Shown one piece after another: positions 24,290 through 42,948 of a stretch of DNA of 64,000 bases. A model generated the notes under the pieces. The model was not told the DNA's origin. It did not search any database and saw only the letters and a program-made list of their open reading frames with translations. The stretch is from Armatimonadota bacterium (lineage in GTDB: Bacteria; Sysuimicrobiota; Sysuimicrobiia; Sysuimicrobiales; Sysuimicrobiaceae): NCBI GenBank assembly GCA_031460175.1, contig JAVKGW010000005.1:124001-188000 (forward strand). Reading direction: 5' to 3'. Numbering within the stretch: the first letter of the stretch is position 1; each line of letters opens with the position of its first letter. Made by a program: the position numbers and the translations under genes.

Positions 24290-24961
24290 TCAGACGTTGA
24301 GCTCCCGCAGCTCACCCGTGACCATGTAGATCACGCGCTCCGCGATGTTCGTCACGTGGTCCGCGGCCCGCTCCAGGTGCTGCGCCACCAGCAGGAGATC
24401 CAGGGCCCGGGAGATGGTGCGGGGGTCCTCCATCATGTAGGTGATGAGCTCCCGGAACACCTGGCTGCGGAGATCGTCCACCTGGTCGTCCTTTGTCGCC
24501 AGGGCCTCCGCCCGCTGTGGGTCCCGCTGCGCGAAGGCCTGCAAAGCCTCCTGCAGCATCTCCTGCACCAGCTGCTCCATCCGGGGGATGTCCACGAGCG
24601 GCTTTACGGGCGGCTGGTTCGCCAAGCGCCGCACCGCCTTTGCGATCCCCTCTCCGTGATCCGCGAGCCGCTCGAGGTCGATGGAGATGGCCAGGACGGA
24701 GGTGAGCACCCGGAGGTCCCCGGCCATGGGCTGCTGGGTGGCCAAAAGCTTCACCACTCGGTCCTCAATCTGGAGGTGCAGGCGGTCCACCACGTCGTCC
24801 TCCGCGATGACCGCCTCCGCGGCCTCCGCATCCTGCCGTCGCAGGGCCTCCACCGCCCGATGGATGAGGTCTCCCGCGAGGCTGCCCATGCGCAGGACGT
24901 CCTCCTCCAGGGCCTGCAGGGCCTCGTCGAATGCCTCCCGGATGTGCCGCAATGTCCCCAT
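24290..24961 (-). CDS. phoU: PhoU phosphate-signalling protein
   Basis: A 223-residue all-helical protein of two PhoU repeats, each with the E/D-x3-D metal-binding pattern (AVIAEDDVVDRLHLQIEDRV; ALATKDDQVDDLRSQVF). It negatively regulates phosphate uptake and PhoR signalling. No pst transporter or phoR/phoB is adjacent. GGGGAGGTGG precedes the ATG. Confidence 0.93.
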   Translation of the reverse strand: MGTLRHIREAFDEALQALEEDVLRMGSLAGDLIHRAVEALRRQDAEAAEAVIAEDDVVDRLHLQIEDRVVKLLATQQPMAGDLRVLTSVLAISIDLERLADHGEGIAKAVRRLANQPPVKPLVDIPRMEQLVQEMLQEALQAFAQRDPQRAEALATKDDQVDDLRSQVFRELITYMMEDPRTISRALDLLLVAQHLERAADHVTNIAERVIYMVTGELRELNV

Positions 24962-24993
24962 GCCCCACCTCCCCTGTTCGGAGGGCCCCCGCT

Positions 24994-25209
24994 TTACGTC
25001 TCCGCCGTGCCCTGTAGCCGGCAGCAGTTCGGCCCGCAGGGAGCCAGGTCTCCGTTCCCCTCCGCCCGGCCCACCGCGAACACGGAAATCACCCGCCGGA
25101 CCTGCTGCGATCCGCAGCTCGCGCAGGTCACGGTCTGCCACGAGCGCCCCAGCACGAGCTCCTCAAACCGCTCCCCACACGTCTCGCACACGTACTCGTA
25201 GATGGGCAT
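24994..25209 (-). CDS. FmdB-type zinc ribbon protein
   Basis: A 71-residue protein with MPIYEYVCETCGERFEEL and a second CASCGS pair, the FmdB regulatory zinc-ribbon signature. The C-terminus adds CGPNCC. The ATG at 25209 has GGAGG upstream; the longer frame is not needed. The role of the family is poorly known. Confidence 0.9.
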   Translation of the reverse strand: MPIYEYVCETCGERFEELVLGRSWQTVTCASCGSQQVRRVISVFAVGRAEGNGDLAPCGPNCCRLQGTAET

Positions 25210-25292: not shown

Positions 25293-25985
25293 ATGAGCCC
25301 GGTGCCTTTCTGGGAACGGCCTGAGGTGGTGGAGCGGTTCGCCTCCCGCCCGCCGGACGACCGCATGGTGCGTCTCCTCTCCCCCCTCCCCCGCACCACC
25401 CGGATCCTGGACCTGGGATGCGCCGCGGGCCGCAACACGGAGTGGATGGCGCGGGAGGGATTTGACGTGTACGCGTGTGATGGTTCCGAGGCCATGGTGG
25501 CCTACACCCGGAACCGGCTGCGGCCCTACCTGCCGGAAGAGGAGCTCGCCCGACGGGTGATCCGCTGCCGCATGGACGACCTCTCCGCCTTTCCCGATGC
25601 CTTCTTCGACGTGGTGGTGGCCCTGGGCATCTACCAGCAGGCGGAGCACGCGGAGGAGTGGCACCGGGCCGTGGCGGAGACCGCCCGGGTCCTCCGCTCG
25701 GGCGGCCACCTCCTCGTCCAGCATTTCGCGGTGGGATCCCAACCCTGGGCAGGACCTCTGCGGGAGGTAGAGCCCTGGGTGTTCGAGGCGGAGGCGCCAG
25801 AGGGCGAGAGGCGACGGTTCGTGCTCCTGGATGAGACCACCCTCAACGCCTGGATGGACCAACACGGGCTCTCCCCCGAAGGCCCCGCCCGACTCACCAC
25901 CCGGCCGACCGAGGAAGGAGGGTTCTGGCACAACCTCCACGCCCACTACCGGAAGCGTGACATAGGCACGTTAAGCGGATTTTAA
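25293..25985 (+). CDS. class I SAM-dependent methyltransferase
   Basis: A 230-residue methyltransferase. Motif I is RILDLGCAAGRNTEWMAREG, then VYACDGSEAMV (motif II acid), MDDLSAFPDAFFDVVVALGIYQQ (motif post-II/III) and ARVLRSGGHLLVQ. The substrate is unknown. GGGAG lies 6 bases before the ATG. The stop codon is embedded in the first half of a regulatory direct repeat (25971-25987) serving the next gene. Confidence 0.9.
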   Translation: MSPVPFWERPEVVERFASRPPDDRMVRLLSPLPRTTRILDLGCAAGRNTEWMAREGFDVYACDGSEAMVAYTRNRLRPYLPEEELARRVIRCRMDDLSAFPDAFFDVVVALGIYQQAEHAEEWHRAVAETARVLRSGGHLLVQHFAVGSQPWAGPLREVEPWVFEAEAPEGERRRFVLLDETTLNAWMDQHGLSPEGPARLTTRPTEEGGFWHNLHAHYRKRDIGTLSGF

Positions 25986-25987
25986 GG
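25971..25987 (+). promoter_or_regulatory. TTAAG-N6-TTAAG direct-repeat operator, site A
   Basis: TTAAGCGGATTTTAAGG: two TTAAG half-sites exactly 11 bp apart, overlapping the methyltransferase stop. Ten bases after it comes TACCCT, a possible -10. The flavin amine oxidase starts 87 bases downstream. One of five such elements in the window (see 31152, 33898, 42893, 42932). Confidence 0.65.
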
Positions 25988-26074
25988 GGTACCGTCCTAC
26001 CCTCAGCTCCGCAGAAGGCCATGAGGGGAGTATCCCCACGTGGTCTAACGCCCGCAAAGTTCTGGAGGAATCGG

Positions 26075-27664
26075 ATGCGGGTCGCCAAGGGTAGCCGGAC
26101 CGTCACCTTCTCCTGGATCCAGCGGTGGCTACGTCTCGCGGACCTCGCCAACCGGCCCGGGGCTCCGCCGGTGGAGGAGCTGGTGGAGCGGAGCTGGGAG
26201 GCTCCGATGAGCCGGCGGGAATTCCTGCGGGCCGCGGGCGGTGCGGCTCTGGCGGCCACGGCGGGAGGACTCCTCCAACCCCTCGAGGTGCTGGCGGGCC
26301 CGCAAGCCCCACGGGTGGTCATCGTGGGAGCCGGCATCGCGGGCTTAAGTGCGGGGTACGCCTTGCGGCAAGCCGGGATCCGACCCCAGATCTACGAGGC
26401 CAGCACCCGCACGGGCGGCCGCATCTTCTCCGTGCGGGACGCGGTGGTGCCGGGGCTCGTGACGGAGTTCGGAGGGGAGTTCATCGATTCCGGACACGAG
26501 GAGATGCACCGGTTCGTGCGCCTGTTCGGGCTGCGGTTGATCGATCTGAAAGCCGGGGAGGAGGCCCGGCTGCGGCCCACCTTCTACTTCAACGGCCGCC
26601 GGATCTCCGAGGCAGAGGTGGTGCGGGCCTTCCGACCGCTGGCCCGGCGCATCCGGCAGGACCAGGATGCGGTGGGAGATATGGTCACGTACCGGCAGCA
26701 CACCCCCCGGGCCCGGGAACTTGATCGCCTCTCCATCTCCGAGTACCTGGACCGCATCGGTGCGGCCGGGTGGGTGAAGGAGCTGCTGGAGGTGGCATAC
26801 GTGGGGGAGTACGGGCTGGAGGCGGGGGAGCAGTCTGCCCTCAACCTCGTCCTTCTCATCGGCACAGAGCCCGGTACGACCTTCGAGGTGTACGGCGAGA
26901 GCGACGAGCGCTACAGCGTGCGGGGCGGAAACCAGCAGGTCCCGAACCGGCTGGCACAGCTCCTGGAGTCTTCCCTACACCTGGAACACCGCCTCGTGGC
27001 GCTGCGGCAGCGGGGAAACGGCTACCGCCTGGTCTTCGAACGACGGGGCGCGGGCACCGTGGAGGTGGACGCGGACTTCGTGATCCTCACCGTCCCCTTC
27101 ACCATCCTCCGGGAACTGGAACTCAAGGTGGACCTGCCGCCCGTCAAGCGACGCGCCATCCGGGAACTCGGCTACGGCACCAACAGCAAGCTCATCCTGG
27201 GGTTCCGGGAGCGGGTGTGGCGGAAGGGGGGCTCTTCGGGCGAACTCTTCACGGACCTGCCGTGGCAGAGCGGGTGGGACAGCAGCCGCGGCCGGCCCGG
27301 GAAGGCGGGGACCTACACGGTCTTTCTGGGAGGACGGGCAGGCGTGGAGGTGGGCGAGGGGCTGGCGCGAGAGCAGGCGGAAAGGGTACTCCCAGGCCTC
27401 GAACGCATCTTCCCCGGCGCCCGGGCGGCCTACGCGGGGCGGGTGGCCCGGTGGCACTGGCCCTCGGACCCCTTCGTCCGCGGGAGCTACGCGTGCTGGA
27501 AGGTGGGCCAGTACACCAGCATCGCGGGGGCGGAGTTCGAGCCCGTGGGGCGACTCCTGTTCGCGGGGGAGCACACGAGCCTCGAATCCCAGGGGTATAT
27601 GAACGGGGCCGCAGAGACCGGCCGGCGGGCCGCCCAGATCGTCCGGAGGAGGGTGCGGAGGTAG
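26075..27664 (+). CDS. Tat-exported flavin monoamine oxidase family protein
   Basis: A 529-residue FAD enzyme. After a 45-residue N-terminal extension comes a twin-arginine signal (MSRREFLRAAGGAALAATAGG). The FAD motif VVIVGAGIAGLSAGYALRQAG follows, then EASTRTGGRIFSV and the C-terminal FAD-contact RLLFAGEHTSLESQGYMNGA. It oxidises an amine or amino acid outside the membrane; the substrate is unknown. The ATG at 26075 has GGAGGAA 4 bases upstream. The Tat motif is followed by a hydrophobic run, so it may stay anchored. Confidence 0.9.
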   Translation: MRVAKGSRTVTFSWIQRWLRLADLANRPGAPPVEELVERSWEAPMSRREFLRAAGGAALAATAGGLLQPLEVLAGPQAPRVVIVGAGIAGLSAGYALRQAGIRPQIYEASTRTGGRIFSVRDAVVPGLVTEFGGEFIDSGHEEMHRFVRLFGLRLIDLKAGEEARLRPTFYFNGRRISEAEVVRAFRPLARRIRQDQDAVGDMVTYRQHTPRARELDRLSISEYLDRIGAAGWVKELLEVAYVGEYGLEAGEQSALNLVLLIGTEPGTTFEVYGESDERYSVRGGNQQVPNRLAQLLESSLHLEHRLVALRQRGNGYRLVFERRGAGTVEVDADFVILTVPFTILRELELKVDLPPVKRRAIRELGYGTNSKLILGFRERVWRKGGSSGELFTDLPWQSGWDSSRGRPGKAGTYTVFLGGRAGVEVGEGLAREQAERVLPGLERIFPGARAAYAGRVARWHWPSDPFVRGSYACWKVGQYTSIAGAEFEPVGRLLFAGEHTSLESQGYMNGAAETGRRAAQIVRRRVRR

Positions 27665-28302: not shown

Positions 28303-28358
28303 CCAAACTCAAACCAACAAACCCGCCTTACTTTCTTTAAATAAAAAGGAGCAGGCGG
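28303..28358 (-). terminator. terminator of the minus-strand membrane operon
   Basis: Read on the minus strand, CCGCCT (28358-28353) pairs with AGGCGG (28328-28323) around an AT-rich loop that contains the stop codon. A T-rich tract (GTTTGTTGGTTTGAGTTT) follows. It is AT-rich compared with its surroundings. The loop is long, hence moderate confidence. Confidence 0.4.
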
Positions 28359-30208
28359 CACCACCCGAACCACACCGCAGCCGCCACAAGCCACCGCACT
28401 CGCCCGCGGGCCAGGACCGCGGTCGTGCCCGCTCCGGCTGCTCCCAGCCAGGCCAGGAACTGGGCCCAGCTCAGCATCTCCGTGGCCTGGACCTGGCCCA
28501 GTCGCCGGAGGAGGGTTTCGGTCCACGGCACGAAAGGCACCGGTAGGAAGAGGGGATCGTAGTAAAACGCCAGGGTGCCGGAAGCCAGAAGTAGCCCGGT
28601 GGCCACGCGGAGTCCAGGAGAGGCCGGATCCTCCCACCGGGCGACCCGCAGCGCAAGAGGCCAGAGCAGGACCGCCAGTGCCGGGGACCCCGTGCGGAGA
28701 GACGGGGCCAGCGCGGCTGCGGGAAGGGCCGAGAAGTACCCCGCGAAGAACAGGCGGGCGGAGGGAACTTCCACGCTCCAGCCCGCGACCAGGCGCGCGA
28801 GGAGGTGCGGCACCCCCCACAGGACCATCCCGAGGAACGGGTAAAGGGTGGTGGTCCGCACCGCGGCCTGCGGATCCGCGGCGAACCGGAAGCCCGTGGT
28901 GGCAAGCCCCAGGAGGGAGACGGCCGCGACCAATAGCGCCTTCTCCCCCCGCACGCCCTTTGCCGCCTGCTTGAACTCTTCCAGGAGCACGGGGGCCGAA
29001 GCGAGCAGCAGGGGCCACCACCCCGAGGGTGCTTCGACCTCCGAAAGCGCCGACCAGGCCTGTGCACCTCCCCAGTACACCAGGGCGAGCACCAGCCCTG
29101 AGGCGAGCCCGTCGCTGGCCGCGTCCACGGGGTCGTACCCTCGCAGCGCGCGCCAACCGGTCAGCAGGCCGACCAGCAAAAACAGAAAGCCGCACAGGGC
29201 CAGTCCTCCGGTCCAGGCGTCCTGGAGAAACCCCGAGACCGGACGCAACAGGAAAAGCGGCAGGAGGTCCAGCACCGCGGCCGGGGCAAGGGCGAGCCCG
29301 AGGGCCAGAATCCCCAACCCTGCGAGCATGAGAGCTACCACGGCGGGGACCTGTCGTCTACCGAGCACCTTCCGGACCCGGCCGACCAGACGACCGGCCA
29401 GCTCCGAGGCATCGTCCACCAGATCTGCGGCAAGCCACATCCAGAAGAGCCCCAAGAACGTGAAGAGGGCCGAATACCCCATCTGCAGGGCTTCCCCGAA
29501 CCGGGCAGGGCCGCGGGCGATTCCCCCTCCGTATGCCACCGCCATCCCGGCGAAGAGCACGGCCCGCTCCGGAAGCGGAAACCGAGGAGGCCGCCGGGAC
29601 AGGGCGAGCCCCGCCCCCGCGTACACCACCGTCCAGAGTGCCACCGAAGCCCACAGGGGCTTGACCACCCCGGGGCTCAAGCGTCCCAGCAGGAGAACCC
29701 AGGGGAAAAGCCACAAAGGGCTTGCGCGGTCCGCGCGAAGCCGCAGGACCTCCAGGAGGTACAGGGTGAAGGCCGGGACCAGCGCCACCACCCGGGGCAA
29801 GGCGAGGACGGGCGGCAGCAACAGGTACCACAGGGTGTAGAGGGCCATCCCGAACCGCAGGGCGGGATGGGCCGGACGCACTTCCGCGTTGAGCAGCGCG
29901 AAGACGAAGGCAGCGATGGCGCCGAGGAGCGCCTGAGCCGCGGCCCCCCGGAGCATCCATGCGCGCTGCGCCTCGCCCGCGAACACCACGGTGCCGAAAC
30001 CTGCAAGCCCGCACACGAGGAGGACGAACCCTCCCACGCCCCACGGGCCGAGCCGAAGCAGGGCAAAGGCACCCGATACGGCCGTCTGGAGGTCTTTCCA
30101 CTTGATCCCTAGGCCCAGGGCCTGGACCAGCTGATCCAGCCCGGCCACCGCGACCCCGAGCAACCTGCGCGCCCGGGTGGAAGCGGCCTCCCGTCGGTCC
30201 TCCTTCAT
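28337..30208 (-). CDS. large multi-pass membrane protein of unknown function
   Basis: A 623-residue protein made almost entirely of hydrophobic spans, perhaps 14-17, with short Arg-rich loops. It begins with a basic cytoplasmic region (MKEDRREAASTRARR). No transporter or enzyme motif is recognised. One acidic loop, VLLEEFKQAAKG, contains an E-E-x-x-K pattern like that of PrsW proteases, but without the other PrsW motifs, so this may be chance. The start overlaps the stop of the PrsW-like gene upstream (ATGA). It therefore belongs to the operon facing site B. Confidence 0.7.
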   Translation of the reverse strand: MKEDRREAASTRARRLLGVAVAGLDQLVQALGLGIKWKDLQTAVSGAFALLRLGPWGVGGFVLLVCGLAGFGTVVFAGEAQRAWMLRGAAAQALLGAIAAFVFALLNAEVRPAHPALRFGMALYTLWYLLLPPVLALPRVVALVPAFTLYLLEVLRLRADRASPLWLFPWVLLLGRLSPGVVKPLWASVALWTVVYAGAGLALSRRPPRFPLPERAVLFAGMAVAYGGGIARGPARFGEALQMGYSALFTFLGLFWMWLAADLVDDASELAGRLVGRVRKVLGRRQVPAVVALMLAGLGILALGLALAPAAVLDLLPLFLLRPVSGFLQDAWTGGLALCGFLFLLVGLLTGWRALRGYDPVDAASDGLASGLVLALVYWGGAQAWSALSEVEAPSGWWPLLLASAPVLLEEFKQAAKGVRGEKALLVAAVSLLGLATTGFRFAADPQAAVRTTTLYPFLGMVLWGVPHLLARLVAGWSVEVPSARLFFAGYFSALPAAALAPSLRTGSPALAVLLWPLALRVARWEDPASPGLRVATGLLLASGTLAFYYDPLFLPVPFVPWTETLLRRLGQVQATEMLSWAQFLAWLGAAGAGTTAVLARGRVRWLVAAAVWFGWCRLLLFI

Positions 30209-31113
30209 CCCGCCCTCCGGAGTCTCCGCACCCGGTCCCGCCAGGCCTCCACCTCATCCTCCCGTCCCAAGCCCCGCACCGCCCGCCACTTCGCGGACGC
30301 AAGCCGGAAGAGCGCCTGACGCAGCGGCTTCGAAAGCCCCCGGTCATCCACCAGGAGGGAGAGGAACTCCTCCTCCGTCACCACGTCCGCGACAACCTCC
30401 TCCCGCAGGAACCGAACAAGGAGCTCCCGATCCTGCCGTCGGGCCCACGCGTGCACGAGAACCAGCAGACCGATGGGTGCCCACTCCCAGAGCAGGAGCC
30501 CCGCCGCTGCCAGGGGTTGCCAGGGGCCGGAAACCAGGGAGACGCGGGCGACCTGGAGGAATGCGACGGATCCCGCCGCTCCCGCCGCCCATCCGATCAC
30601 AGCAAATCCCCACTGGAGCAGGCCTCGGAGCCCCCACTCCCGTCCAAACCCCAGCAGGGCGCCGTATAGGGCCGGGAGCATCGCCTGAGCCAGGCCGGCT
30701 CCCAGGATGTGGAGTTGCATCCCCAACTCCAGGAGCGAGCCCGGGAGGAGGGAGATGCCCAGGCCCACGAGGGCGTAACCGACTCCCACCCCAAGGCCGT
30801 AGAGAACGCCGTCCAGCCCGCTCTGGTATTGCCGCCGTAGTCCAACGTAGCAGGCCAGCACCGCCGCCGCCTTGCCCGCCTCCTCCATCACGGCCAGCCG
30901 AGCCGTAGGGGCGGAGTACCAGACGTGGACGAACCCGGGCCAGCCCTCCCACCCTCCGAAAACCCCAGCCAGTAGCCGCGCCACGACGGGCGCCAGCACC
31001 CCTCCCCCAAGCAGGGCTGCCGCCACCACGGTGCCGGGCTGCCTTCCAAAGCGTGCCGCGTGCGCGACAAACCCCAAGTAGGCCACCGTGAAGAGCACTG
31101 GAAGCAGCCTCAC
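30205..31113 (-). CDS. degenerate PrsW-family membrane protein
   Basis: A 302-residue polytopic protein related to the three PrsW proteins of this region. The EExxK motif is kept (MEEAGK, Glu77-Glu78-Lys81), and DGVLYGLGVGVGYAL corresponds to the second motif. However, its closing Glu is replaced (VG) and the histidine motif is AQAMLPALYG, with no His. It is probably not a working protease. The C-terminal cytoplasmic tail (SAKWRAVRGLG...WRDRVRRLR) is clearly shared with its paralogs. GTG start at 31113 with AAGGGG upstream. Divergent from the SARP-type regulator, with site B between them. Confidence 0.72.
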   Translation of the reverse strand: MRLLPVLFTVAYLGFVAHAARFGRQPGTVVAAALLGGGVLAPVVARLLAGVFGGWEGWPGFVHVWYSAPTARLAVMEEAGKAAAVLACYVGLRRQYQSGLDGVLYGLGVGVGYALVGLGISLLPGSLLELGMQLHILGAGLAQAMLPALYGALLGFGREWGLRGLLQWGFAVIGWAAGAAGSVAFLQVARVSLVSGPWQPLAAAGLLLWEWAPIGLLVLVHAWARRQDRELLVRFLREEVVADVVTEEEFLSLLVDDRGLSKPLRQALFRLASAKWRAVRGLGREDEVEAWRDRVRRLRRAG

Positions 31114-31151: not shown

Positions 31152-31168
31152 CCTTAAAATTCGGTTAA
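31152..31168 (-). promoter_or_regulatory. TTAAG-N6-TTAAG direct-repeat operator, site B
   Basis: Read on the minus strand: TTAACCGAATTTTAAGG, two half-sites 11 bp apart, best matching site A. It lies 38 bases before the PrsW-like gene and 12 bases before the SARP-type regulator, so it could control both, including autoregulation. Confidence 0.6.
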
Positions 31169-31180
31169 AGGCGGTGTGAG

Positions 31181-33901
31181 ATGCCTGGGGGCGTGTGGCT
31201 CGTACGGACGCGCTTGCTGGACCGACTCCCGCGGGAGCCCCGCTACGTGGTGTGGTTGCAGGCCCCGTACGGCTTCGGGAAGACCGTCCTGCTCCGGCAG
31301 TGGGCAGACCAGCTTAGGGAGAAAGGGTGGCGGGTCGTCTGGGCGAGCGGGGCAGCGGGTTCTCTTTCCGAGCAGATCGCTCGGTCCCTGGGGGCCGACC
31401 CCACGGCCAGATGGGGGCTTCTTCGGGTGCTCCTTGAGGATCGGCCCACGCTCCTCGTGCTGGACGACGTGGCTCTGGATGCGACCTTGGACCTGCGGCT
31501 TCCCGCGGACGGGCTCCTCGTGGGGCTCAGCAGCCGCGCGGAGCTCAGCTGGCCGGAGCTCCCCCGGATGCACACCCAGGGAAGGCTTGTGCGGCTCACC
31601 GCGGAGGAGCTGCGGTTCACCCTCGCGGAGGTCCGGGAGCTCATCGCCGACGACCGTCGGGCCTACGAGGTTTGGGAGAGCTCAGGCGGGTGGCCCATCG
31701 CGGTGCACATGGCGGCCCTCACGGGCACCTTGGACCTCCACCGGGCCTTGGTCCAGGGGGTAAGGGAATCCCTGGGATCGCAGGAGTGGGAGACCCTCCT
31801 GCTCCTCTCCGCCCTTCCCACCCTTCCGGACTCCGCGGAGGACAGGGGACTCCGGCGTCTTGAGGAGTCCGGATTCGTGCAGCGCACCCCGGAGGGCTTC
31901 CGGATCCACGCCCTCTTCGCGGAGGTCCTCCACGCCACCGCCCTGGCGGAGATCCAGGAAGCGGTGCGCAGGCGGGCTTCGCAGCTTTCTCCGGAGCTTC
32001 GGGCAGAGGCGTACTTTCGCTCCGGCCTATGGCAGGAACTGGAGCGCCTGCTCGACAGCCCCGAAGCCCTGGATCTGGCCGGCATCTCCCCTTCTGGCCT
32101 CCTCCGGTGGTGCCGGGCGCTCCCCGGGCTTGGCGGGCCGTGGCGGCGGCTGGCATACGGGATGACCCTGTGCCTACAGGGGAAACTCCAGGAGGCCTTT
32201 GCGCGGCTGGAGGCCCTCGCCCGCGACGTGGAGGCGACGCATCCCGAAGTCGCCATCCGGGCCTGGGGACTCGTGGCGTACAACGCGCCGGAGGTAGACC
32301 TGCAACGGGCGCTCAACGCCGTGGAGCGGGGATGGCGGCTCGTGGACCGGGTAGAGCCGCATGCCGCTGCCCGGTTCCTCAACTGGGCGGTCTGGCCCCT
32401 CTGGAAGGCCGGGCACCTGGACCGGTTTGAGGCCGCACTCCAAGAGGCCTCCAGACGCCTGCCGCCGGACGACCCGTACCTCTTCCACCCCATCGGCTAC
32501 AACCTGGCCTTTCTCCGCTGGCAGAAGGAAGGGAATCTGGAACACTACCTCGCCTGGAACCGGCGCACCGCGGAACACCAGGAGCGCACCCGCTCCCACA
32601 ACCTCCCCCTCACCCTGCTCGAGACCGGCCGCCTGCTCGTCCTTGCGGGTCGGTCCGAAGAAGCCCTGGCCTGCTTCCGCAGAGCACAGGCTCACCCCGG
32701 ATGGAACTTCTGGGCGGAGGCCCTGGCTGCCGCCTGGGCAGCCTACCTGGAGCGGGATACCAGGCCCTTCGAGCGGCTTGCGAGCCTCGCGGAGGCGGAC
32801 GAGAACCCGGAACTGCTGGATGCGATCCGGGGTCTGTGGGCGCGTACCCTGAGGGAAAGCGGCTCCCCCGACCTTGCCCTCGCGGTGACGCAGCCCGTCC
32901 GAGGCTTCTGGACCGCGCTGGAGGCGGCCTTGACCCTGTGGGAGCTGGGGCGACCCGAAGAAGCCCAGGTTTACCTTCCACCAGAACCCAGGGATCGGGA
33001 GGAGCGGGCCTATTACCACGCAGCCCGGTACCGGATCCTGCGGTCCGAGGTAGACCTGGAAGCCCTGGTCCGGCTCACCTCCCTCGGGCCCCGGATCCTC
33101 CCGGCGCTCCTGCCCGTGCACGAGCTGCCCCGGCACCGGCCGGAGCTCGCGGACTTCTACCCGATTGAGGAGGTGCTCCGCTGCGGCTGGAAGGAGGCCA
33201 TAGAGCGGCGCCTGGACGAAATCCCACTCCTCGCGGTGGAGCTGCTGGGACGGTTTCGGGTCCGCCGTCTGGGACAGGAGGTCTTGCTCTCTCCCACCGC
33301 CCGCAACCTGCTCGTCCTCCTCCTTTTGGGCCGGGACCGGGAAGCCATCGCGGAGGACCTGTGGCCGGAAGCAGCGCCCGGGCAGGCCCGCAACAACCTC
33401 CACGTCCACCTCCACCACCTCCGCCGGGCGCTGGAACCATGGGGAGTTCCCACTTACCTCACGCCCACCGGGTTCCGGAGGACCCGGGTGGACCTCTGGG
33501 ACCTCCAGGAAGCGTTGGACCGGCAGGATGCGGAGGCCGTCCTCCGGTTGTACCGGGAGCCCGTGGCTCCCGGGGTGGACCTCCCCGCGGTGGACGAAGT
33601 CCGGTACGCCCTCCAGCAACGGGTCGTGGACCTCCTCCACCGGCGGGGGAGCGCTTCCGAGTCTGAAGAGGGCATCCGGTACCTGGAGCGGGTGCTGGAG
33701 CTGGACCCTCTGCACGAGCCCGCCCTCCAGGCCCTCCTGCGCTGCCTACTGAGTCTGGGCCGTCGGGAGGCAGCCCTGCGGGCCTACCGGGCCTTTGCGG
33801 AGAGGTTGCGGGCCGAGCTGGACACCGACCCCCTCCCCGAGACCCAGGCCCTTCTGGATTCCGTACCAACCGGAACCTCCTCCCGCAGGAGGCGGTCTTA
33901 A
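31181..33901 (+). CDS. STAND ATPase / SARP-type transcriptional regulator
   Basis: A 906-residue protein. The N-terminus has a MalT/LuxR-LAL-like STAND NTPase: Walker A APYGFGKT (residues 28-35), Walker B LLVLDD (91-96), and the winged-helix marker GGWPIAVHMAAL. The middle (about 250-680) is helical, TPR-like, as in MalT. The C-terminus is not the LuxR helix-turn-helix but an OmpR-type winged helix (about 686-765, ELLGRFRVRRLGQ... LHVHLHHLRRAL) followed by a BTAD domain (about 770-895), i.e. the SARP architecture. Such proteins activate transcription from 11-bp-spaced direct repeats; five such repeats occur in this window. The gene ends inside site C. Confidence 0.88.
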   Translation: MPGGVWLVRTRLLDRLPREPRYVVWLQAPYGFGKTVLLRQWADQLREKGWRVVWASGAAGSLSEQIARSLGADPTARWGLLRVLLEDRPTLLVLDDVALDATLDLRLPADGLLVGLSSRAELSWPELPRMHTQGRLVRLTAEELRFTLAEVRELIADDRRAYEVWESSGGWPIAVHMAALTGTLDLHRALVQGVRESLGSQEWETLLLLSALPTLPDSAEDRGLRRLEESGFVQRTPEGFRIHALFAEVLHATALAEIQEAVRRRASQLSPELRAEAYFRSGLWQELERLLDSPEALDLAGISPSGLLRWCRALPGLGGPWRRLAYGMTLCLQGKLQEAFARLEALARDVEATHPEVAIRAWGLVAYNAPEVDLQRALNAVERGWRLVDRVEPHAAARFLNWAVWPLWKAGHLDRFEAALQEASRRLPPDDPYLFHPIGYNLAFLRWQKEGNLEHYLAWNRRTAEHQERTRSHNLPLTLLETGRLLVLAGRSEEALACFRRAQAHPGWNFWAEALAAAWAAYLERDTRPFERLASLAEADENPELLDAIRGLWARTLRESGSPDLALAVTQPVRGFWTALEAALTLWELGRPEEAQVYLPPEPRDREERAYYHAARYRILRSEVDLEALVRLTSLGPRILPALLPVHELPRHRPELADFYPIEEVLRCGWKEAIERRLDEIPLLAVELLGRFRVRRLGQEVLLSPTARNLLVLLLLGRDREAIAEDLWPEAAPGQARNNLHVHLHHLRRALEPWGVPTYLTPTGFRRTRVDLWDLQEALDRQDAEAVLRLYREPVAPGVDLPAVDEVRYALQQRVVDLLHRRGSASESEEGIRYLERVLELDPLHEPALQALLRCLLSLGRREAALRAYRAFAERLRAELDTDPLPETQALLDSVPTGTSSRRRRS

Positions 33902-33914
33902 GCCGGTTTTAAGT
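33898..33914 (+). promoter_or_regulatory. TTAAG-N6-TTAAG direct-repeat operator, site C
   Basis: TTAAGCCGGTTTTAAGT overlaps the stop codon of the regulator gene. TAATGT follows 10 bases later as a likely -10, and the next gene starts 45 bases after the site. It would drive the long operon from 33960 to about 42298. Confidence 0.65.
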
Positions 33915-33959
33915 CCGGCTGGCCTAATGTGGCCCCGACGGAGCGGACCGGAGGCGGCC

Positions 33960-34313
33960 ATGGAGACCGGTGCTCAACAGTCCTTTACCTCGGCCCAGAA
34001 GATCGTGGCCATCGGCGGGTGGTGGCTGTGGTGGATCGCGCTCGGCGGGTTCTTCCTGCAGCCCCCGCATCCTCTCGTCCGCCGCCACACGCTCTGGGCC
34101 CTGGGGTGGGGAATCCTCCTCTCCGTGGTGTTCGGGTTCTTTCCCCTGCTGTTTTTACTGATCGCAGGGGCCACGGGCAACCGGACGTTTGCGGGAATCG
34201 CTACCCTTGGGGGTCTTGGCTGGAACTTCCTCGGAGTTCTGGTTTGGTTCGCGGCTGCCGCGGTGAACACCTACGCCTTCCTCCAGGGAAAGGGGCCCTG
34301 GCTGAGACCTTAA
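33960..34313 (+). CDS. small membrane protein, first gene of the PrsW operon
   Basis: A 117-residue protein with three hydrophobic spans (about 14-34, 43-68 and 78-105), rich in Trp in the first (GGWWLWWIALGGFFLQP). GGAGG lies 5 bases before the ATG at 33960. It is not recognised. It directly follows site C and precedes the first PrsW gene by 21 bases. Confidence 0.65.
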   Translation: METGAQQSFTSAQKIVAIGGWWLWWIALGGFFLQPPHPLVRRHTLWALGWGILLSVVFGFFPLLFLLIAGATGNRTFAGIATLGGLGWNFLGVLVWFAAAAVNTYAFLQGKGPWLRP

Positions 34314-34334: not shown

Positions 34335-35387
34335 ATGCGCTGGCTTCTCGCAGCCGTAGATCAACCCCGCCCGCTCCTCCCGTCGCCACAGACCGTGAGC
34401 CCACCGCCTGAGGCCGCCGGTGCCGTGACGGGAGGATCCGGGGTGATCCTGGGAGCCCTCATCGTCCTCGTGCTCACCGCCCTGTACGTGGCCATCCTGT
34501 ACTGGGCGGACCGGCACGAGAAGGAGCCCGGAAGCGTGCTGGCGGCAGCCCTGTTGGGAGGGGCCATCGCGGCACCGGTCCTCACCGTGGTCCTGGAGCG
34601 GCTTGCAGGGATCCGCATGTCCGTCTACCCGGCCTCCTTCCACGCCCTCAACGCCGCCTTCTTCGGTCCCAACCCCGCAGGGGCCGTGGTGGAGGAGGGC
34701 ATGAAGGCCCTGGTGATCCTCGTCCTCTTCCGGGCCCTGCCGCGGGAGTTCGACGGGGTGCTGGACGGCGTGGTGTACGGGGGGATCGTGGGAGCCGGGT
34801 TCGCCCTGGCGGAGTCCGCGGTGTACCTGTGGGACCTCTCGCGCCTGGGGCCTGCGGCAGCCCCCGGGGTCGGCATGTTCTTCGGCATCCTCCTCACCGG
34901 CCTCACCCACTGCGCGTTCGGGGCCATCTTCGGCGCCTCCCTCGGCGCCGTGCGGGAGTTCGGGCTTTCCGGATCTGGAAGCTGGTGGCTGCCGGTGGGC
35001 GGGTTCGGGGTCGCAGCCCTGTACCACGCGGCCTATGACGCCCTGGCGGCCCTGCTGGCCTCCGGCACGGGGCCGGTGGCCCTCGTGGGGCTCGCCCGCA
35101 CCGCGGCGGACTGGGCCGGGGTCATCGCCCTGGTGATCACCGTGGCCTGGGCCCTGCGGCACGAACGGAGCGTGATGAGCCGCTACCTGCCCCTGGAGGC
35201 GGAGGAGGGCCACGTCCCGCGGGAGTACGTGGACGCCGTCCTGCAGGGCCGGTGGTCCAACCTGCCCGGGCCTGCGCGACAGCCTCTGGCCGAGCTGGCC
35301 TTCGCCCGCAGGCGCCTGGAGCGGGGGCTCACCAACGAAGCGGAACTGCAGCTGTACCGTGACCGGATCCGGGAGGTCGCCCGATGA
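34335..35387 (+). CDS. PrsW-family intramembrane metalloprotease 1
   Basis: A 350-residue polytopic protein. PrsW (M82) proteases cleave membrane-anchored substrates such as anti-sigma factors. All motifs are present: RHEKEPGSVL (59-69), VVEEGMK with Glu120-Glu121-Lys124, DGVVYGGIVGAGFALAES with Glu160, THCAFGAIFGA with His192, and ALYHAAYDAL with His231. The N-terminus is Pro-rich and outside the membrane. The cytoplasmic tail ends with the shared module AELAFARRRLERG...YRDRIREVAR. The stop overlaps the next gene (ATGA), an anchored secreted protein that is a candidate substrate. Confidence 0.88.
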   Translation: MRWLLAAVDQPRPLLPSPQTVSPPPEAAGAVTGGSGVILGALIVLVLTALYVAILYWADRHEKEPGSVLAAALLGGAIAAPVLTVVLERLAGIRMSVYPASFHALNAAFFGPNPAGAVVEEGMKALVILVLFRALPREFDGVLDGVVYGGIVGAGFALAESAVYLWDLSRLGPAAAPGVGMFFGILLTGLTHCAFGAIFGASLGAVREFGLSGSGSWWLPVGGFGVAALYHAAYDALAALLASGTGPVALVGLARTAADWAGVIALVITVAWALRHERSVMSRYLPLEAEEGHVPREYVDAVLQGRWSNLPGPARQPLAELAFARRRLERGLTNEAELQLYRDRIREVAR

Positions 35388-36007
35388 ACCGTAGTCTTCT
35401 GATCGGCGGCGGTCTGGGCTGTGGGTGCCTCACGCTGCTCGCGGTGGTCGCGGTGGTGGCAGGACTCGTGGTCTTCGCACGGCCGAAGTCCGTGCCGACT
35501 CCGCAGCCCACGGTGAGTCCTCCGCCCGCGCCGAGCCCTGCCCCGACAGGTCTCGGTCCCACGCCACAGCCCAGCCCTGTTCCCACGCCTCCGCCGCCCG
35601 GTGGCCGGTGCCCGCAGCAGCCCGTGGCCCAGGGACCGGAGGCGCTGGGGAAGGGGATCTGCCCCCAGCAGGTGCCGGGGGTGGAGATTGGAGGCGGAAT
35701 GACCGTGCGGCTCGGACCGGATGGGATGCCTACGGAGCCGGCGGGCGTGTTCCGGGTGGGAGAGCGCGTAGGGGTGGACTACACCATCCTTCGCATGGAC
35801 ACGCAGGTGGTCAGGGTGGTCGTCAGGGTAGAGTCTCAGGAGCGTGTGATTCCGGTTAACCAGCCGGAGCCTGAGGACAAACCTGGACGGTTCCTCTACC
35901 GCCTGGACACCGGCGGCGGTTCTCCTGGACTCTACGCCTTTGCCCTTGCCGTACCCCAGGGAGGCCAGCCCGCGGTGGTGCTGGTGATCCCCTTCGCCCT
36001 CCAGTAG
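35384..36007 (+). CDS. membrane-anchored secreted protein, GCGCLTL type (a)
   Basis: A 207-residue protein: a short N-terminus, one membrane span starting GGGLGCGCLTLLAVVAVVAG, a Pro-rich linker of about 45 residues, and a beta-rich external domain that begins with a Cys-Pro motif (GRCPQQP... GICPQQV). The external domain matches that of the protein at 41768 (PTEPAGVFRVGERVGVDYT versus EPTGLFQRDRDRALVVGFSY). Single-span proteins beside PrsW proteases are natural substrate candidates; this is inference. Translationally coupled to PrsW 1. Confidence 0.7.
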   Translation: MNRSLLIGGGLGCGCLTLLAVVAVVAGLVVFARPKSVPTPQPTVSPPPAPSPAPTGLGPTPQPSPVPTPPPPGGRCPQQPVAQGPEALGKGICPQQVPGVEIGGGMTVRLGPDGMPTEPAGVFRVGERVGVDYTILRMDTQVVRVVVRVESQERVIPVNQPEPEDKPGRFLYRLDTGGGSPGLYAFALAVPQGGQPAVVLVIPFALQ

Positions 36008-36016
36008 GAGCTCGGC

Positions 36017-37183
36017 GTGGCGACCTCGGCGGCTCGTCCCTCCTTCGGCGTGGACACGTTCCTGAAGGCCGTCGGGCTTGCGGGCTTCGGCTTCGTGCTG
36101 CTCGTACTCGCGCTTCTGCAGATGCTCCTCTTCTACCAGAAGGCCGGAGGGGTGTTGCAGTTCCTCATGGCCAGTTTTGCCGCCCTTTCCGTGGTCCCCT
36201 TCTACACCGGGCTCATCCTCCTCCTGGACCGCCACGAGAAGGAACCGGGCTGGCTCCTCTTGGGCGCGTTGCTGTGGGGAGGGGTCGTGGCCACCTTCTT
36301 CAGCCTGATCTTCAACTCCATCGGGAGCGCCATCCTGGTGGCCGTCTTCGGACCCCGGCTCGGCGAGCAGCTCAGTGCGCCCTTCGTGGCACCCGTGGTG
36401 GAGGAGACCTCCAAGGGACTCGCGGTTCTCCTGATCTTCTTGCTGTGGCGCCGGGAGTTCACCAACACCGTGGACGGCCTCGTGTACGGGGCCCTGGCCG
36501 GCCTGGGGTTTGCGGCTACGGAGAACATCCTGTACTTCGCCCGCTTCGTCCGGGAGGGCGGAGCCGGCGGGCTCGCCGTTGGCTTCGTGATCCGGGCGGT
36601 CCTCGGAGGTCTCTCGCACTCGGTCTACACCGCGTGCACCGGTGCGGGCCTCGGGTACGCCCGGGAGACGCGGGGCGTTGGCCGGTTCCTCGCGCCCGTG
36701 GTCGGTTACTTCTGCGCCATGTTCCTCCACTTCCTTTGGAACTTCTCCGCCACCTTCGCCCTGCCCGCGGTCGCGCGATCTGCGGGTAACGCGGCACTCC
36801 TGATGCTCCCCGTGATGTCGTTTTTCATCGAGGGGATCCCGCTCCTTCTGCTCGTGGTGATCGCGTACTTCGCCTGGAAACGGGAGGTGGCGGCCATCCG
36901 AGAGGGACTCGCGGACGAGGTCCAGGCGGGCACCCTCTCGCCGGAGGAGGTGGAAGTGCTCACCCGACCGCGGGAGCGGTCCCGGCACCTGTGGCAGGTT
37001 CTGACGACGAGAGGACCCCTTGCCTGGAACGCGGTGCGCCAGCTGTACGACGCCCAGGTGGATCTCGCCTTCGCCCTGTGGCGACTCCGGCGGGGCGAGC
37101 CGGTGGAACAGGACGTGCAGGCCCTCCGGGAACGGGTCCGGGTGTTGCGGGAGCGGGCCCGGGGAATGGGGGTGGCGGCATGA
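36017..37183 (+). CDS. PrsW-family intramembrane metalloprotease 2
   Basis: A 388-residue protein with about eight spans and the most canonical motif set of the group: DRHEKEPGWLLLG, PVVEETSKGLAVL with Glu129-Glu130, VDGLVYGALAGLGFAATENILYF with Glu169, LSHSVYTACTGAGLG with His201, and FLHFLWNF with His238. The tail carries the shared module (AVRQLYDAQVDLAFALWRLRRG...LRERVRVLRERA). GTG start with GGAG upstream. The stop overlaps the next anchored protein (ATGA). Confidence 0.9.
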   Translation: MATSAARPSFGVDTFLKAVGLAGFGFVLLVLALLQMLLFYQKAGGVLQFLMASFAALSVVPFYTGLILLLDRHEKEPGWLLLGALLWGGVVATFFSLIFNSIGSAILVAVFGPRLGEQLSAPFVAPVVEETSKGLAVLLIFLLWRREFTNTVDGLVYGALAGLGFAATENILYFARFVREGGAGGLAVGFVIRAVLGGLSHSVYTACTGAGLGYARETRGVGRFLAPVVGYFCAMFLHFLWNFSATFALPAVARSAGNAALLMLPVMSFFIEGIPLLLLVVIAYFAWKREVAAIREGLADEVQAGTLSPEEVEVLTRPRERSRHLWQVLTTRGPLAWNAVRQLYDAQVDLAFALWRLRRGEPVEQDVQALRERVRVLRERARGMGVAA

Positions 37184-37947
37184 GGCAGGCCCGGACAGGC
37201 CAGGCCGGCGTTAGCGTTTGGGTCGTGGTGGCCGTTCTCGCGGCTCTGGTATTCGGATTCCTCGTACTGCTCGGAATGGGTGGGGTGGCCTGGTACCTGA
37301 TCTCGCACCGCCCGAGCCCCCCACCGCCGGTCCCTGTTCCTTCCGGGCAATCTCCGACTGCCGCGCCCACCGGGCCTGCGCCGCAGCCCTCAGCTCCTCT
37401 TCCGCAGCCACCTGGTCCTATACGCTACGCCCGATACATAGACCCCGACGGCGAGTTCGCGGTGGACTACCCGGACACCTGGCGGGTTTTCCCAAACCGC
37501 CAAGGTGTGGTCTTCTCTCCTCCCACAGAGGACCCGCGCGAGGGGACCCAGGCTTTCTTCAGCAAGCTCGTCGGTCAGACCGGCCGAGGCCTAATTCCGG
37601 CCCAACAGCTGCTGGACGAAGTCGTCCAAGGCGAGCGGAGGCGGTATCCGGACTATCAGGTGGTGCAGCGGTGGGTACGTCCTGGGCCGTTCCGGGAGAC
37701 GGAAGAAGCGTACCTCGAAGCCGTGTGGACGAACGCACGGGGTGAGCGGATGCACGGGGCGGGCCGCTTCCTCCTGCTCCACTCCGCAACGGTACAGGCC
37801 AGCATGTGGCGCCTCATTTTCTACCGCTCCCAGGAGACGGCCTGGCTCAGCCTCCTTCCCGTGTTCCAACACATGGAACAGAGCTTCCAGCCCGGCAGCA
37901 CGGGCCCTGGCCCGGGACCATCTCCGAGCCCGACACCGACGCCGTAA
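37180..37947 (+). CDS. membrane-anchored protein with PsbP/DUF1795-like domain
   Basis: A 255-residue protein: one N-terminal span (about 11-35), a Pro/Ser linker of about 35 residues, then a domain starting YIDPDGEFAVDYPDTWRVFPNRQGVVF, the usual opening of PsbP-like/DUF1795 folds. It ends in a Pro-Ser tail. Its function is unknown. Together with the genes at 35384 and 41768 it forms a set of single-span external proteins interleaved with PrsW proteases. The ATG overlaps the PrsW 2 stop. Confidence 0.72.
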   Translation: MRQARTGQAGVSVWVVVAVLAALVFGFLVLLGMGGVAWYLISHRPSPPPPVPVPSGQSPTAAPTGPAPQPSAPLPQPPGPIRYARYIDPDGEFAVDYPDTWRVFPNRQGVVFSPPTEDPREGTQAFFSKLVGQTGRGLIPAQQLLDEVVQGERRRYPDYQVVQRWVRPGPFRETEEAYLEAVWTNARGERMHGAGRFLLLHSATVQASMWRLIFYRSQETAWLSLLPVFQHMEQSFQPGSTGPGPGPSPSPTPTP

Positions 37948-37962
37948 GAGGGGACCCCAGCC

Positions 37963-39114
37963 ATGCAAGGAGTCTCACACACACCCCTTCGTAAGGGCTA
38001 CCTGGCCCTCCAGTTGGCCCTCCTCGGCGTTTTCGCCCTCGTTGGGCTTTTGGTCCTGCTGATCCTGGTGGGAGAGACCGGAGGGGTACTTCCCTTCCTC
38101 CTCGGGTCTGTTCTGTCCGTGCTCCCGGTTCCCCTCTACGTGGCGTTGATCCTGTGGATCGACCGGCACGAGAAGGAGCCGGGGTGGCTGCTGCTCGCGG
38201 CCTTCTTCTGGGGCTCCACCGTCGCCATCCTCTTCAGCTACATCTTCAACTCTCTCCTGGCGGAAATCCTGCGGGCCCTTCTGGGTCCCCTCTGGGCCAC
38301 ACGGGTCACGCTCGGCATCGTGACGCCCCTTGTGGAGGAGACCGCCAAGGGGGTGGCGCTTCTGGGCATGGCGTTTGCGGTGCGGGACGAGTTCGACAAC
38401 CTCACCGACGGCCTCGTCTACGGAGCGCTGGTGGGCCTGGGCTTCGGGGTTGTGGAGAACGTCCTGTACCTGGGGCGCGCCTTCAAAGCGGGAGGCCTCG
38501 GAGGCTTGACCGTGCTGTTCTTCCTCCGGGTGATGCTTCTCGGCCTCATGCACTCCATCTGGACGGGATGCACGGGCGCAGGCGTCGGCTATGCCCGGGA
38601 GCGCGGGGGAGCCGCCCGGTTCCTCGCGCCCGTGGGCGGGTACCTGGCCGCGGTGTTCCTGCACGCCCTGTGGAACTCCAGCAGCGTGGGGCTCGAGGCC
38701 GCGGTCGGACCGAGGGCTTTGCTGCTCGTCCCGGTCCTCTTCGGGGTGATCCTCCTGCCGGGCGTACTCGTCCTCGGAGTGCTCGCTTACCTGTGCGAGC
38801 GGCGGGAGCGGGAGGTCCTGCGCTCTCACCTCCTGGACTTGGTGGCCTCCGGGGAGCTCTCGGAAGAAGAGCTGCGGGTGGTCGCGGGCCGGGAGAAGTC
38901 CAGGCGGCTTTGGCGCGCCTGGGCGCAGAAGGGACCGTCCGGGTGGCTCGCCCTCCGCCAGTTCTACGACGCCCTGGCGGAACTGGCCTTCGCCCGGTGG
39001 AGGGCCGCGCAGGGCAGGCCTTCGGGAATCTCGGAGGAGGAACTGCGGGCTCGGATCCGCGAGCTCCGGGAACGGCTGAAGGCGCTGGGCCTGGAAGGGC
39101 CCACGAGGGGGTAA
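37963..39114 (+). CDS. PrsW-family intramembrane metalloprotease 3
   Basis: A 383-residue protein closely related to PrsW 2: IDRHEKEPGWLLLA, TPLVEETAKGVALL with Glu125-Glu126, LTDGLVYGALVGLGFGVVENVLYL with Glu165, LMHSIWTGCTGAGVG with His197, and FLHALWNSS with His234. The tail module is ALRQFYDALAELAFARWRAAQG...LRARIRELRERL. PrsW 2 and 3 look like a tandem duplication that includes the linked anchored protein between them. Confidence 0.9.
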   Translation: MQGVSHTPLRKGYLALQLALLGVFALVGLLVLLILVGETGGVLPFLLGSVLSVLPVPLYVALILWIDRHEKEPGWLLLAAFFWGSTVAILFSYIFNSLLAEILRALLGPLWATRVTLGIVTPLVEETAKGVALLGMAFAVRDEFDNLTDGLVYGALVGLGFGVVENVLYLGRAFKAGGLGGLTVLFFLRVMLLGLMHSIWTGCTGAGVGYARERGGAARFLAPVGGYLAAVFLHALWNSSSVGLEAAVGPRALLLVPVLFGVILLPGVLVLGVLAYLCERREREVLRSHLLDLVASGELSEEELRVVAGREKSRRLWRAWAQKGPSGWLALRQFYDALAELAFARWRAAQGRPSGISEEELRARIRELRERLKALGLEGPTRG

Positions 39115-39121
39115 ACGGAAG

Positions 39122-40264
39122 GTGGACCCGGAAACCCTGTTCCAGGGAGCAGAGCGCTCCATTGCCGCTCGGCTTGCTTCCGCCCTCCCGCGTCTGCGGC
39201 CCGTGCTGCCTGCCCTGGAGGCGCAGCGGCGGCGGTGGGCGCGGGTCGTGTGGGCCGCCCTGACGCCGCCAGCGCTCATGGCGGCCTTCCTGGCGGGGAG
39301 CCTCGCTATCGGGCTTCTCCTGCTCGTCCTGGGGCTGCTGGCCTCTGCGGTCGCCCCGGAAGTCGGCGCTTCCCTGACGGCTCTCTCGCTCTCGACGCTG
39401 GCCCTCATGTCCGCCTTCGTCCCGTTTATCTCGTTTGTTCTCGGTCCCGTGTACGTGTTCGCGCTCGTGGTGGGCTGGATTCTCCTCGTACCCTACCGCG
39501 ACCGGGTTTCCAGCGAGATCCGGACAAAACTCCTGGAAGAACTGGCTCCCCTCCCGGGCCTGCGGCCATCACACGCCGGGGCTGCTGAGTTCGGGACGGG
39601 GTTTGCCGACCTCGTCCGCGGCCTCGTGGGAGGCCGGCCCCCTCGCGTCAACCTGGCCATGGTGGGAGAACTCGCGGGCCGCCGGCTCGCGTTCGCGGAG
39701 GTGGACGTCCTCCCCACCATCCCCCGGCGGCGGGGCTTTCTCTACCCCGGCCCTCCCGGCCGAGGGGGCCGGCAGTTCTACGGGCTCGTGGCGGCCGTCG
39801 AGATGGACCCGCCCGGGAGCCCGACCGTGCTGGTCACCTGGGCGGGGTTCTGGGCGCGGGTCAGCCTGTGGGACCTGAACCTCTCGAGTGCCCGAAAGCG
39901 CTTGCAGAAACTCCCTCTGCAGGACCCGGCCTTCGACGCGCACTACGAGGTCCACACGGACCACGTCGAGCAGGCGCGGACCTTCCTCCGACCGGAGCTG
40001 CGGGGAGCCCTCCTGTACCTAGCGCGGCAGCTTCCCTGGAAGCCGCTGCTGGCCTTGGGAGGCGGCCACGCGTATGCCTTCGTGCCGTGGCGAGGGTTCC
40101 TGGAAATGTCGCCCTTCCGGCGGCTCGACGAGCGGTGGGTCCAGAACAAGGCACTTGCGGACCTCCGGGCCCTCCTCCGGGCGGTGTGCCTGGCCGCCGT
40201 GGCCGCGGGAGTTTCCGCACGGGATGTCGCGGACGCGTTCATGAAGGAGGCCCGGGCGTCATGA
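39122..40264 (+). CDS. DUF3137-like membrane protein (a)
   Basis: A 380-residue protein: an N-terminal helical region, two hydrophobic spans (about 55-80 and 95-125), then a cytoplasmic domain. DPAFDAHYEVHTDHVEQARTFL followed by LALGGGHAYAFVPW is the recognisable DUF3137 (galanin-like) pattern. It ends ALLRAVCLAAVAAGVSARDVADAFM, matching the end of the gene at 40795. Function unknown. The GTG start has GGAAG upstream, and the stop overlaps the next gene (ATGA). Confidence 0.7.
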   Translation: MDPETLFQGAERSIAARLASALPRLRPVLPALEAQRRRWARVVWAALTPPALMAAFLAGSLAIGLLLLVLGLLASAVAPEVGASLTALSLSTLALMSAFVPFISFVLGPVYVFALVVGWILLVPYRDRVSSEIRTKLLEELAPLPGLRPSHAGAAEFGTGFADLVRGLVGGRPPRVNLAMVGELAGRRLAFAEVDVLPTIPRRRGFLYPGPPGRGGRQFYGLVAAVEMDPPGSPTVLVTWAGFWARVSLWDLNLSSARKRLQKLPLQDPAFDAHYEVHTDHVEQARTFLRPELRGALLYLARQLPWKPLLALGGGHAYAFVPWRGFLEMSPFRRLDERWVQNKALADLRALLRAVCLAAVAAGVSARDVADAFMKEARAS

Positions 40265-40788
40265 CCTCTGTGTCGCTGCTGCTCGCGGTTTCCACCCTGA
40301 CCCGGCTGGTCCCTTACACGGACGCGGAAGCCCGTTTCCGGGTGCTGCGTCCTGCCGCCTGGCAGGTGGAACGTGTCCGGGTCAACCTCATGGAAACCGT
40401 GTTCTACCGAGACCACCCCCGTCGGGGTCCGCGGGCAGTGGTCGTCCCGCAGGCTCAGGTGGCGGCCTCCACCCTCCGGGAGGCGGCCTGTCTTATGCTG
40501 CAGTACGTCCGGCCCGCGGACATCGTTCCACCGCGGTCCGGCCCCTGGCCCCGGAGGCGGTGCGGTTTCCCTTGGTCCTTTCACACCGCCGCCACGACCT
40601 CCGGGGAAGGCGAAGCCGCCTGGCAGGCCGGGCGCGCGCGGGAGAGGACTCTCTACCGGATCCGGCTGATCCAAAAGTCGGGCGGTGTGCTCCAGGTGGA
40701 CTTCCTGGCGGGCGTGGCGCCCGCAGACGAGTTCATCTCTCTCCGGCCCATCTTCCGGCAGGTGATCCGTTCGTACCGGGCCCCCTGA
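40261..40788 (+). CDS. small secreted protein with PsbP-like opening motif
   Basis: A 175-residue protein. A short hydrophobic N-terminus may be a signal peptide. The domain opens YTDAEARFRVLRPAAWQVE, similar to the PsbP/DUF1795 start in the 37180 protein but without a span and linker. It contains a Cys-rich patch around residues 75-105. Function unknown. Coupled to the DUF3137-like gene upstream by an ATGA overlap. Confidence 0.6.
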   Translation: MTSVSLLLAVSTLTRLVPYTDAEARFRVLRPAAWQVERVRVNLMETVFYRDHPRRGPRAVVVPQAQVAASTLREAACLMLQYVRPADIVPPRSGPWPRRRCGFPWSFHTAATTSGEGEAAWQAGRARERTLYRIRLIQKSGGVLQVDFLAGVAPADEFISLRPIFRQVIRSYRAP

Positions 40789-40794
40789 CCCGCC

Positions 40795-42892: not shown

Positions 42893-42909
42893 CCTTAAGG
42901 TCCGCTTAA
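42893..42909 (-). promoter_or_regulatory. TTAAG-N6-TTAAG direct-repeat operator, site D
   Basis: On the minus strand: TTAAGCGGACCTTAAGG, nearly identical to site A. TTTACT follows 9 bases later as a possible -10, and the ATG of the minus-strand gene is 24 bases away. Confidence 0.65.
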
Positions 42910-42931: not shown

Positions 42932-42948
42932 TTAAGTGGGGCTTAAGG
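42932..42948 (+). promoter_or_regulatory. TTAAG-N6-TTAAG direct-repeat operator, site E
   Basis: TTAAGTGGGGCTTAAGG, facing the gene at 42998, 49 bases upstream of its start. Sites D and E stand back to back in one divergent intergenic region, each oriented towards its own gene. Confidence 0.65.

Follow-up and report, generated by a model that had tools for sequence, protein, structure and literature searches.

The 64-kb stretch of DNA analysed here (the window) carries a large regulatory gene, REG, with copies of an 11-bp direct repeat close to it, raising the question of what kind of regulator REG is and whether it reads these repeats. The sequence-only reading had proposed a MalT-like ATPase sensor fused to a SARP output that does so. 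The REG features are listed with window coordinates or protein residues.

31181-33901, + strand: REG, a 906 aa STAND-SARP hybrid; ORF open, ATG start
31220-31483, + strand: nSTAND NTPase match, residues 14-101 (Pfam)
Residues 28-35: Walker A, APYGFGKT; invariant or nearly so in the alignment
Residues 91-96: Walker B, LLVLDD; invariant or nearly so in the alignment
Residues 169-172: STAND GxP-type motif GGWP, outside the Pfam nSTAND match; invariant or nearly so in the alignment
31991-33160, + strand: helical TPR-like middle, about residues 271-660 (AlphaFold2 secondary structure; weak TPR matches in Pfam)
33230-33484, + strand: OmpR/SARP-type winged helix, residues 684-768 (Pfam, profile, structure model)
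33377-33433, + strand: long helix with the recognition helix, ...ARNNLHVHLHHLRRAL..., residues 733-751 (C-terminal model residues 74-92, offset 659; conservation)
33524-33856, + strand: BTAD, residues 782-892 (Pfam)

Both the start and the length of the REG ORF are kept in the orthologue alignment. Pfam assigns nSTAND_NTPase5 to residues 14-101 (34.3 bits, cut-off 34) and BTAD to residues 782-892 (52.9 bits, cut-off 22.1), with Trans_reg_C at 698-753 (22.9 bits) alone falling under its cut-off of 26.2. A profile built from five orthologues and compared with solved structures matched MalT over residues 6-189 and AfsR over residues 682-897. Walker A (as APYG[FY]GKT), Walker B and GGWP are all retained in the orthologues, and a STAND ATPase at the N-terminus, its Walker motifs intact, is what characterises the MalT/LAL regulators. 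The LuxR-type helix-turn-helix sought at the REG C-terminus gave no Pfam match; the SARP module is found there instead, with an OmpR-type winged helix followed directly by BTAD as is typical of that family. Nor did Pfam match a receiver domain in REG, as a PhoB/OmpR response regulator would possess. The helical TPR-like middle is presumed to be the sensor. REG itself is the sole strong SARP/BTAD match in its genome.

The C-terminal 247 residues were modelled with AlphaFold2 using an alignment of 11 homologues, giving a pLDDT of 91.5. Foldseek ranked AfsR and EmbR top for this model, and VIA-align returned Z scores of 15.7 for AfsR and 14.5 for EmbR; no other row, single OmpR-type domains included, exceeded 8.6. 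Structure prediction of the C-terminus, suggested earlier as a check, thus yields a confident SARP fold for the protein alone. AlphaFold2 performed poorly on the complete protein (pLDDT 71, pTM 0.37; best match the STAND-TPR protein 6mfv), and hence we rely on the C-terminal model only. Profiles and C-terminal model together bear out the proposed hybrid, which is real: MalT-type at the front and SARP at the back, the order opposite to AfsR. Large SARPs usually carry the SARP module at the N-terminus with extra domains behind it. Given that the module of REG spans residues 682-897 of 906, we file the protein as a reversed-order variant and not as an AfsR-type large SARP.

The distribution of the repeats was assessed against shuffled sequence. 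TTAA-N7-TTAA occurs 5 times in the 64-kb window (0.01 expected) and TTAAG-N6-TTAAG 4 times (0.00 expected). The whole 2.49 Mb genome holds 8 TTAA-N7-TTAA places (control 1), five of which fall in the 17 kb around REG. Exact TTAAG-N6-TTAAG is found 6 times, with four sites within the same 17 kb (25971, 33898, 42894 on the minus strand and 42932). All five window sites are intergenic or lie across a stop codon.

25971-25986, + strand: site A, TTAAGCGGATTTTAAG; -10-like TACCCT 11 bp on (25998-26003); 5' of a Tat-type amine oxidase gene
31153-31169, either strand: site B, aberrant, TTAAAATTCGGTTAAA (+, 31154-31169) or TTAACCGAATTTTAAG (-, 31153-31168); between the divergent PrsW0 and REG
33898-33913, + strand: site C, TTAAGCCGGTTTTAAG; across the REG stop codon; -10-like TAATGT 11 bp on (33925-33930)
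42894-42909, - strand: site D, TTAAGCGGACCTTAAG; -10-like TTTACT; faces the 42868-42317 gene
42932-42947, + strand: site E, TTAAGTGGGGCTTAAG; -10-like CACGTT (weak); faces the 42998 gene

Site C overlaps the stop codon exactly as previously described, at 33898-33913, while sites D and E sit between two divergent exported-looking genes. Outside the window, the fifth exact genomic site is 5' of an exported-protein gene with a subtilase lipoprotein gene next to it, and the sixth is 5' of a histidine kinase-NarL pair. The latter site (L035:3047, L045:3241) is kept in both species of the window's genus and has no convincing -10. The genes near the window sites, putative targets among them, are as follows.

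26021-27664, + strand: flavin amine oxidoreductase, Tat-signal match under cut-off; putative site A target
28337-30208, - strand: polytopic membrane protein gene after PrsW0; no NCBIfam match
30205-31113, - strand: PrsW0, a PrsW-type intramembrane protease, divergent from REG
33960-34313, + strand: small membrane protein, first operon gene behind site C
34335-35387, + strand: PrsW1
36017-37183, + strand: PrsW2
37963-39114, + strand: PrsW3
39122-40264, + strand: DUF3137 protein
40795-41757, + strand: DUF3137 protein
42317-42868, - strand: exported-looking protein, putative site D target; site kept in orthologues
42998-43675, + strand: exported-looking protein, putative site E target

Behind site C runs a series of about ten genes that includes three PrsW and two DUF3137 genes. 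Overall, the putative targets comprise subtilases (S8), an S46 peptidase, the Tat-type amine oxidase, PrsW and DUF3137 proteins, and lipoproteins. Their shared export or membrane location suggests that the putative regulon serves cell envelope upkeep or the breakdown and use of extracellular peptides. The four PrsW-type proteases (34335-41757 and 30205-31113) have EExxK-like motifs and, together with the two DUF3137 genes, are interleaved with short exported proteins; the number of gene copies at this PrsW/DUF3137 locus differs among relatives.

A scan of genome contigs with the single REG protein found no relative; the five-row alignment did find relatives. Full-length orthologues with 63-70% identity are present in four genomes of the same family, and the gene is split in a fifth; those relatives that have names are Armatimonadota MAGs. 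Sites A, B, C and D lie before the same genes in G001, G002, G004 and G005 (site D of G004 on another contig), with changed spacer bases. The same-family genome G003, 100% complete, has no REG, no PrsW gene and none of the sites.

The position of the repeats relative to the promoter was determined for 32 training sites, each oriented by the gene behind it. Base 5 of the repeat, which the search pattern specified for just two of the 32, is G in 31/32 for one repeat and 30/32 for the other. In 29/32 sites, a gap of 10-11 bp separates the second repeat from a -10-like hexamer, counted at a score of 2 or more, that follows it. Other gaps reach at most 8/32 where the bins do not overlap, with 13 and 23 in the adjacent overlapping bins, and the opposite-strand control gave 2/32 at 10-11 bp. 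As the training sites and their strands had been chosen by the analyst, the test was repeated on 16 fresh Deinococcota sites from one Thermaceae MAG and two Trueperaceae-type genomes, with TTAA-N7-TTAA as the sole selection criterion. All 16 have a -10-like hexamer at 10-11 bp against a background rate of 0.14, although the two Trueperaceae-type genomes share several promoters and the sites are hence not fully independent. Some trans sites (L045, L053) lack a good -10. SARP promoters have direct repeats spaced by 11 or 22 bp near the -10, a layout shared by the TTAAG sites with their 11-bp spacing. Counted from one or other of the two Ts in the second TTAAG, the -10-like hexamer comes 15-16 bp later; in AfsR, whose repeats are 11 bp apart, 15 bp lie between the -10 and T-27, the contacted base of the 3' repeat (PMC10936776).

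Aligned along its whole length, REG shares 35-40% identity with homologues from Deinococcota and a small number of other MAGs; a strong homologue is present in 46 of the 111 Deinococcota genomes searched. In the Thermaceae MAG locus L087, one site is found just 5' of the regulator and another spans its stop codon, the arrangement seen in the window, and one-mismatch sites adjoin the regulator in L092 and L086. The composite pattern TTAAG-N6-TTAAG-N10/11-YANNNT yields 87 promoters across the Deinococcota genomes that carry the regulator; 22 are no more than 2.5 kb from a homologue, against 0.33 expected if kinship is ignored. Again ignoring kinship, composite promoters are present in 35/46 genomes with a strong homologue and 21/65 without, and other regulators may therefore read similar sites in the latter. 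Co-location and co-loss within the family, the Deinococcota layout and a -10 at the distance known from SARPs thus support the proposal, by analogy and from sequence, that REG is the probable reader of the TTAAG repeats.

We put at roughly 85% the probability that REG is a one-component activator of reversed SARP order that reads TTAAG-N6-TTAAG upstream of a weak -10. The computations establish the domain make-up, the sites, their co-conservation with the gene and the fixed -10 distance; binding, activation, the nucleotide switch and the signal are what we infer. By analogy with MalT, which responds to a small-molecule inducer and undergoes ATP-driven oligomerisation (PMC10427625), the STAND ATPase and helical sensor would bind a ligand, swap ADP for ATP and oligomerise. 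This switch may free or stabilise the C-terminal SARP module, allowing two SARP protomers to sit side by side on TTAAG-N6-TTAAG, as in AfsR. Placed 10-11 bp upstream of the weak -10, the pair would take the place of a -35 element in drawing RNA polymerase to the promoter.

Direct repeats of 11 bp are bound by OmpR-type factors too, and PhoB/PhoP, known readers of direct repeats, resemble REG in having a winged helix of the same fold, differing in the presence of a receiver domain and the lack of BTAD. The TTAAG repeats could hence be boxes for a response regulator such as PhoP, leaving the STAND-SARP gene a bystander or a target. The window does contain phoU (24290-25141), and TTAA-N7-TTAA accompanies the pst operons of further families in the order (L042-L044); within the window's own family, five genomes have it between pstS and pstC. 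However, the pst-linked box reads TTAAC-N6-TTAAC in 5/5 genomes, whereas the regulon sites are TTAAG. Two G000 response regulators are missing in certain site-bearing members of the family, while the two OmpR-type regulators common to all such members are also kept in the site-less G003, so that a PhoP-type reader suits the pst sites and not the TTAAG set. The sites furthermore accompany REG homologues into Deinococcota. A different OmpR/PhoB-type reader, the finding that the sequence-only reading said would overturn its proposal, thus fits poorly, and we consider it improbable. Even less credible is that the repeats are AT-rich spots without a reader of their own, conserved for some other reason, for instance as a promoter element of a sigma factor: the second repeat does fall roughly at the -35 position, but the repeats occur at a handful of promoters, cluster at REG, are absent from the sister genome that lacks it, and have both halves equally conserved across sites.

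Site B bears on whether REG might bind its sites and yet repress, or mainly autoregulate its own divergent promoter. A repeat site is indeed present there as had been claimed, although it reads TTAAA-N6-TTAAA on the REG strand and TTAAC-N6-TTAAG on the other, with only one repeat being TTAAG; the TTAAA first repeat on the REG strand recurs in 5/5 family genomes (the window genome and four relatives). The 11 bp that separate it from the start codon of REG leave no room for a -10, and bound protein could block transcription, making repression at this site possible. Site B was rejected as a genuine class-II site for REG because the -10 would, at the required spacing, hit the start codon. At most other sites the repeats are at activator distance from the -10, and AfsR, itself a SARP, activates transcription (PMC10936776), so that repression or autoregulation as the main role of REG appears unlikely, more so than a PhoP-type reader. 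Control of the downstream operon is supported, while autoregulation, also part of the original proposal, is less certain given an aberrant site B without a -10 at the right distance.

The activator model places REG among known systems as follows. AfsR of Streptomyces coelicolor and the large SARPs share the OmpR-type winged helix plus BTAD in the AfsR fold; AfsR also combines a STAND ATPase with TPR in one polypeptide, and its sites are direct repeats of 11-bp period with about 15 bp from core base to -10. It differs in its N-terminal SARP and its antibiotic genes, whereas the putative REG targets are exported or membrane proteins and the repeat core is TTAAG. MalT/LAL regulators have the same N-terminal STAND, helical sensor and C-terminal DNA-binding output, but that output is a LuxR-type helix-turn-helix. 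PimR, a SARP-LAL protein, unites SARP and LAL-type parts (PMC3367932), with the SARP N-terminal and a guanylate-cyclase/LAL-like half behind. The COG3947 CheY-SARP of Deinococcus (Deide_19260, PMC3564903) has a C-terminal SARP-type output, again in Deinococcota, preceded by a receiver domain instead of a STAND ATPase. No description of the REG architecture with its regulon was found in the open-access papers searched, an absence that is not proof; what is new is known parts in a new order, a new site and a new regulon. This ties an unstudied regulator family in two phyla to a specific DNA code and defined putative targets, away from the antibiotic clusters of actinobacteria that are the usual setting for work on SARPs. 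It suggests that a MalT-type sensor can acquire a SARP module as its output, and provides a sharp specificity contrast between TTAAG and Pho-type TTAAC, with Deinococcota homologues available to experimenters.

Specificity is not uniform in the family, as most Thermus-type homologues have no TTAAG or [TGC]TAAG pairs nearby (the "Thermus" label of these loci being our assignment). The recognition helix contains W in most Thermus-type homologues (NNLYVWLARLR) and mainly Q or H in site-bearing ones (NNLHVQLN.LR), with exceptions both ways (L115, L126; L102, L106, L125). On balance we favour the view that REG represents an undescribed class of reversed-order STAND-SARP activators in an Armatimonadota lineage and Deinococcota, using TTAAG-N6-TTAAG-N10/11-(-10) to control an exported peptidase/lipoprotein/PrsW regulon, and split by recognition helix into TTAAG readers (NNLxVQ or VH) and a Thermus branch (NNLxVW) that recognises another site. 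The Thermus-type homologues (L107-L131) are about 870-920 aa long, and several have a GGTCAAG...TAGAAT-like promoter 5' of the gene.

Further TTAA-N7-TTAA clusters in the order were not counted as additional cases, those of L042-L044 because they are at pst operons, and those of L038-L041 being at cupredoxin, cytochrome, Mo-oxidoreductase-like and peptidase genes. The L038-L041 contigs, from families of the order other than the window's, gave no SARP match, and L040 has an OmpR-type regulator close by. The conserved TTAAC-N6-TTAAC boxes between pstS and pstC (L033:2088, G000:C1:16087; L047, L050, L051, L054) are likely an internal Pho promoter. In L154:1-2530 (G042:C36), a STAND-like gene is divergent from a lipoprotein gene, and TTAAC-N6-TTAAC with a -10 at 11 bp is located 5' of two lipoprotein genes; the STAND-like gene is possibly a paralogue with changed specificity. 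In the Trueperaceae-type loci L145-L153, many sites precede lipoproteins sharing an N-terminal LPxGxxxDLxxLxVxTPxGxYPV motif, which may constitute an uncharacterised family.
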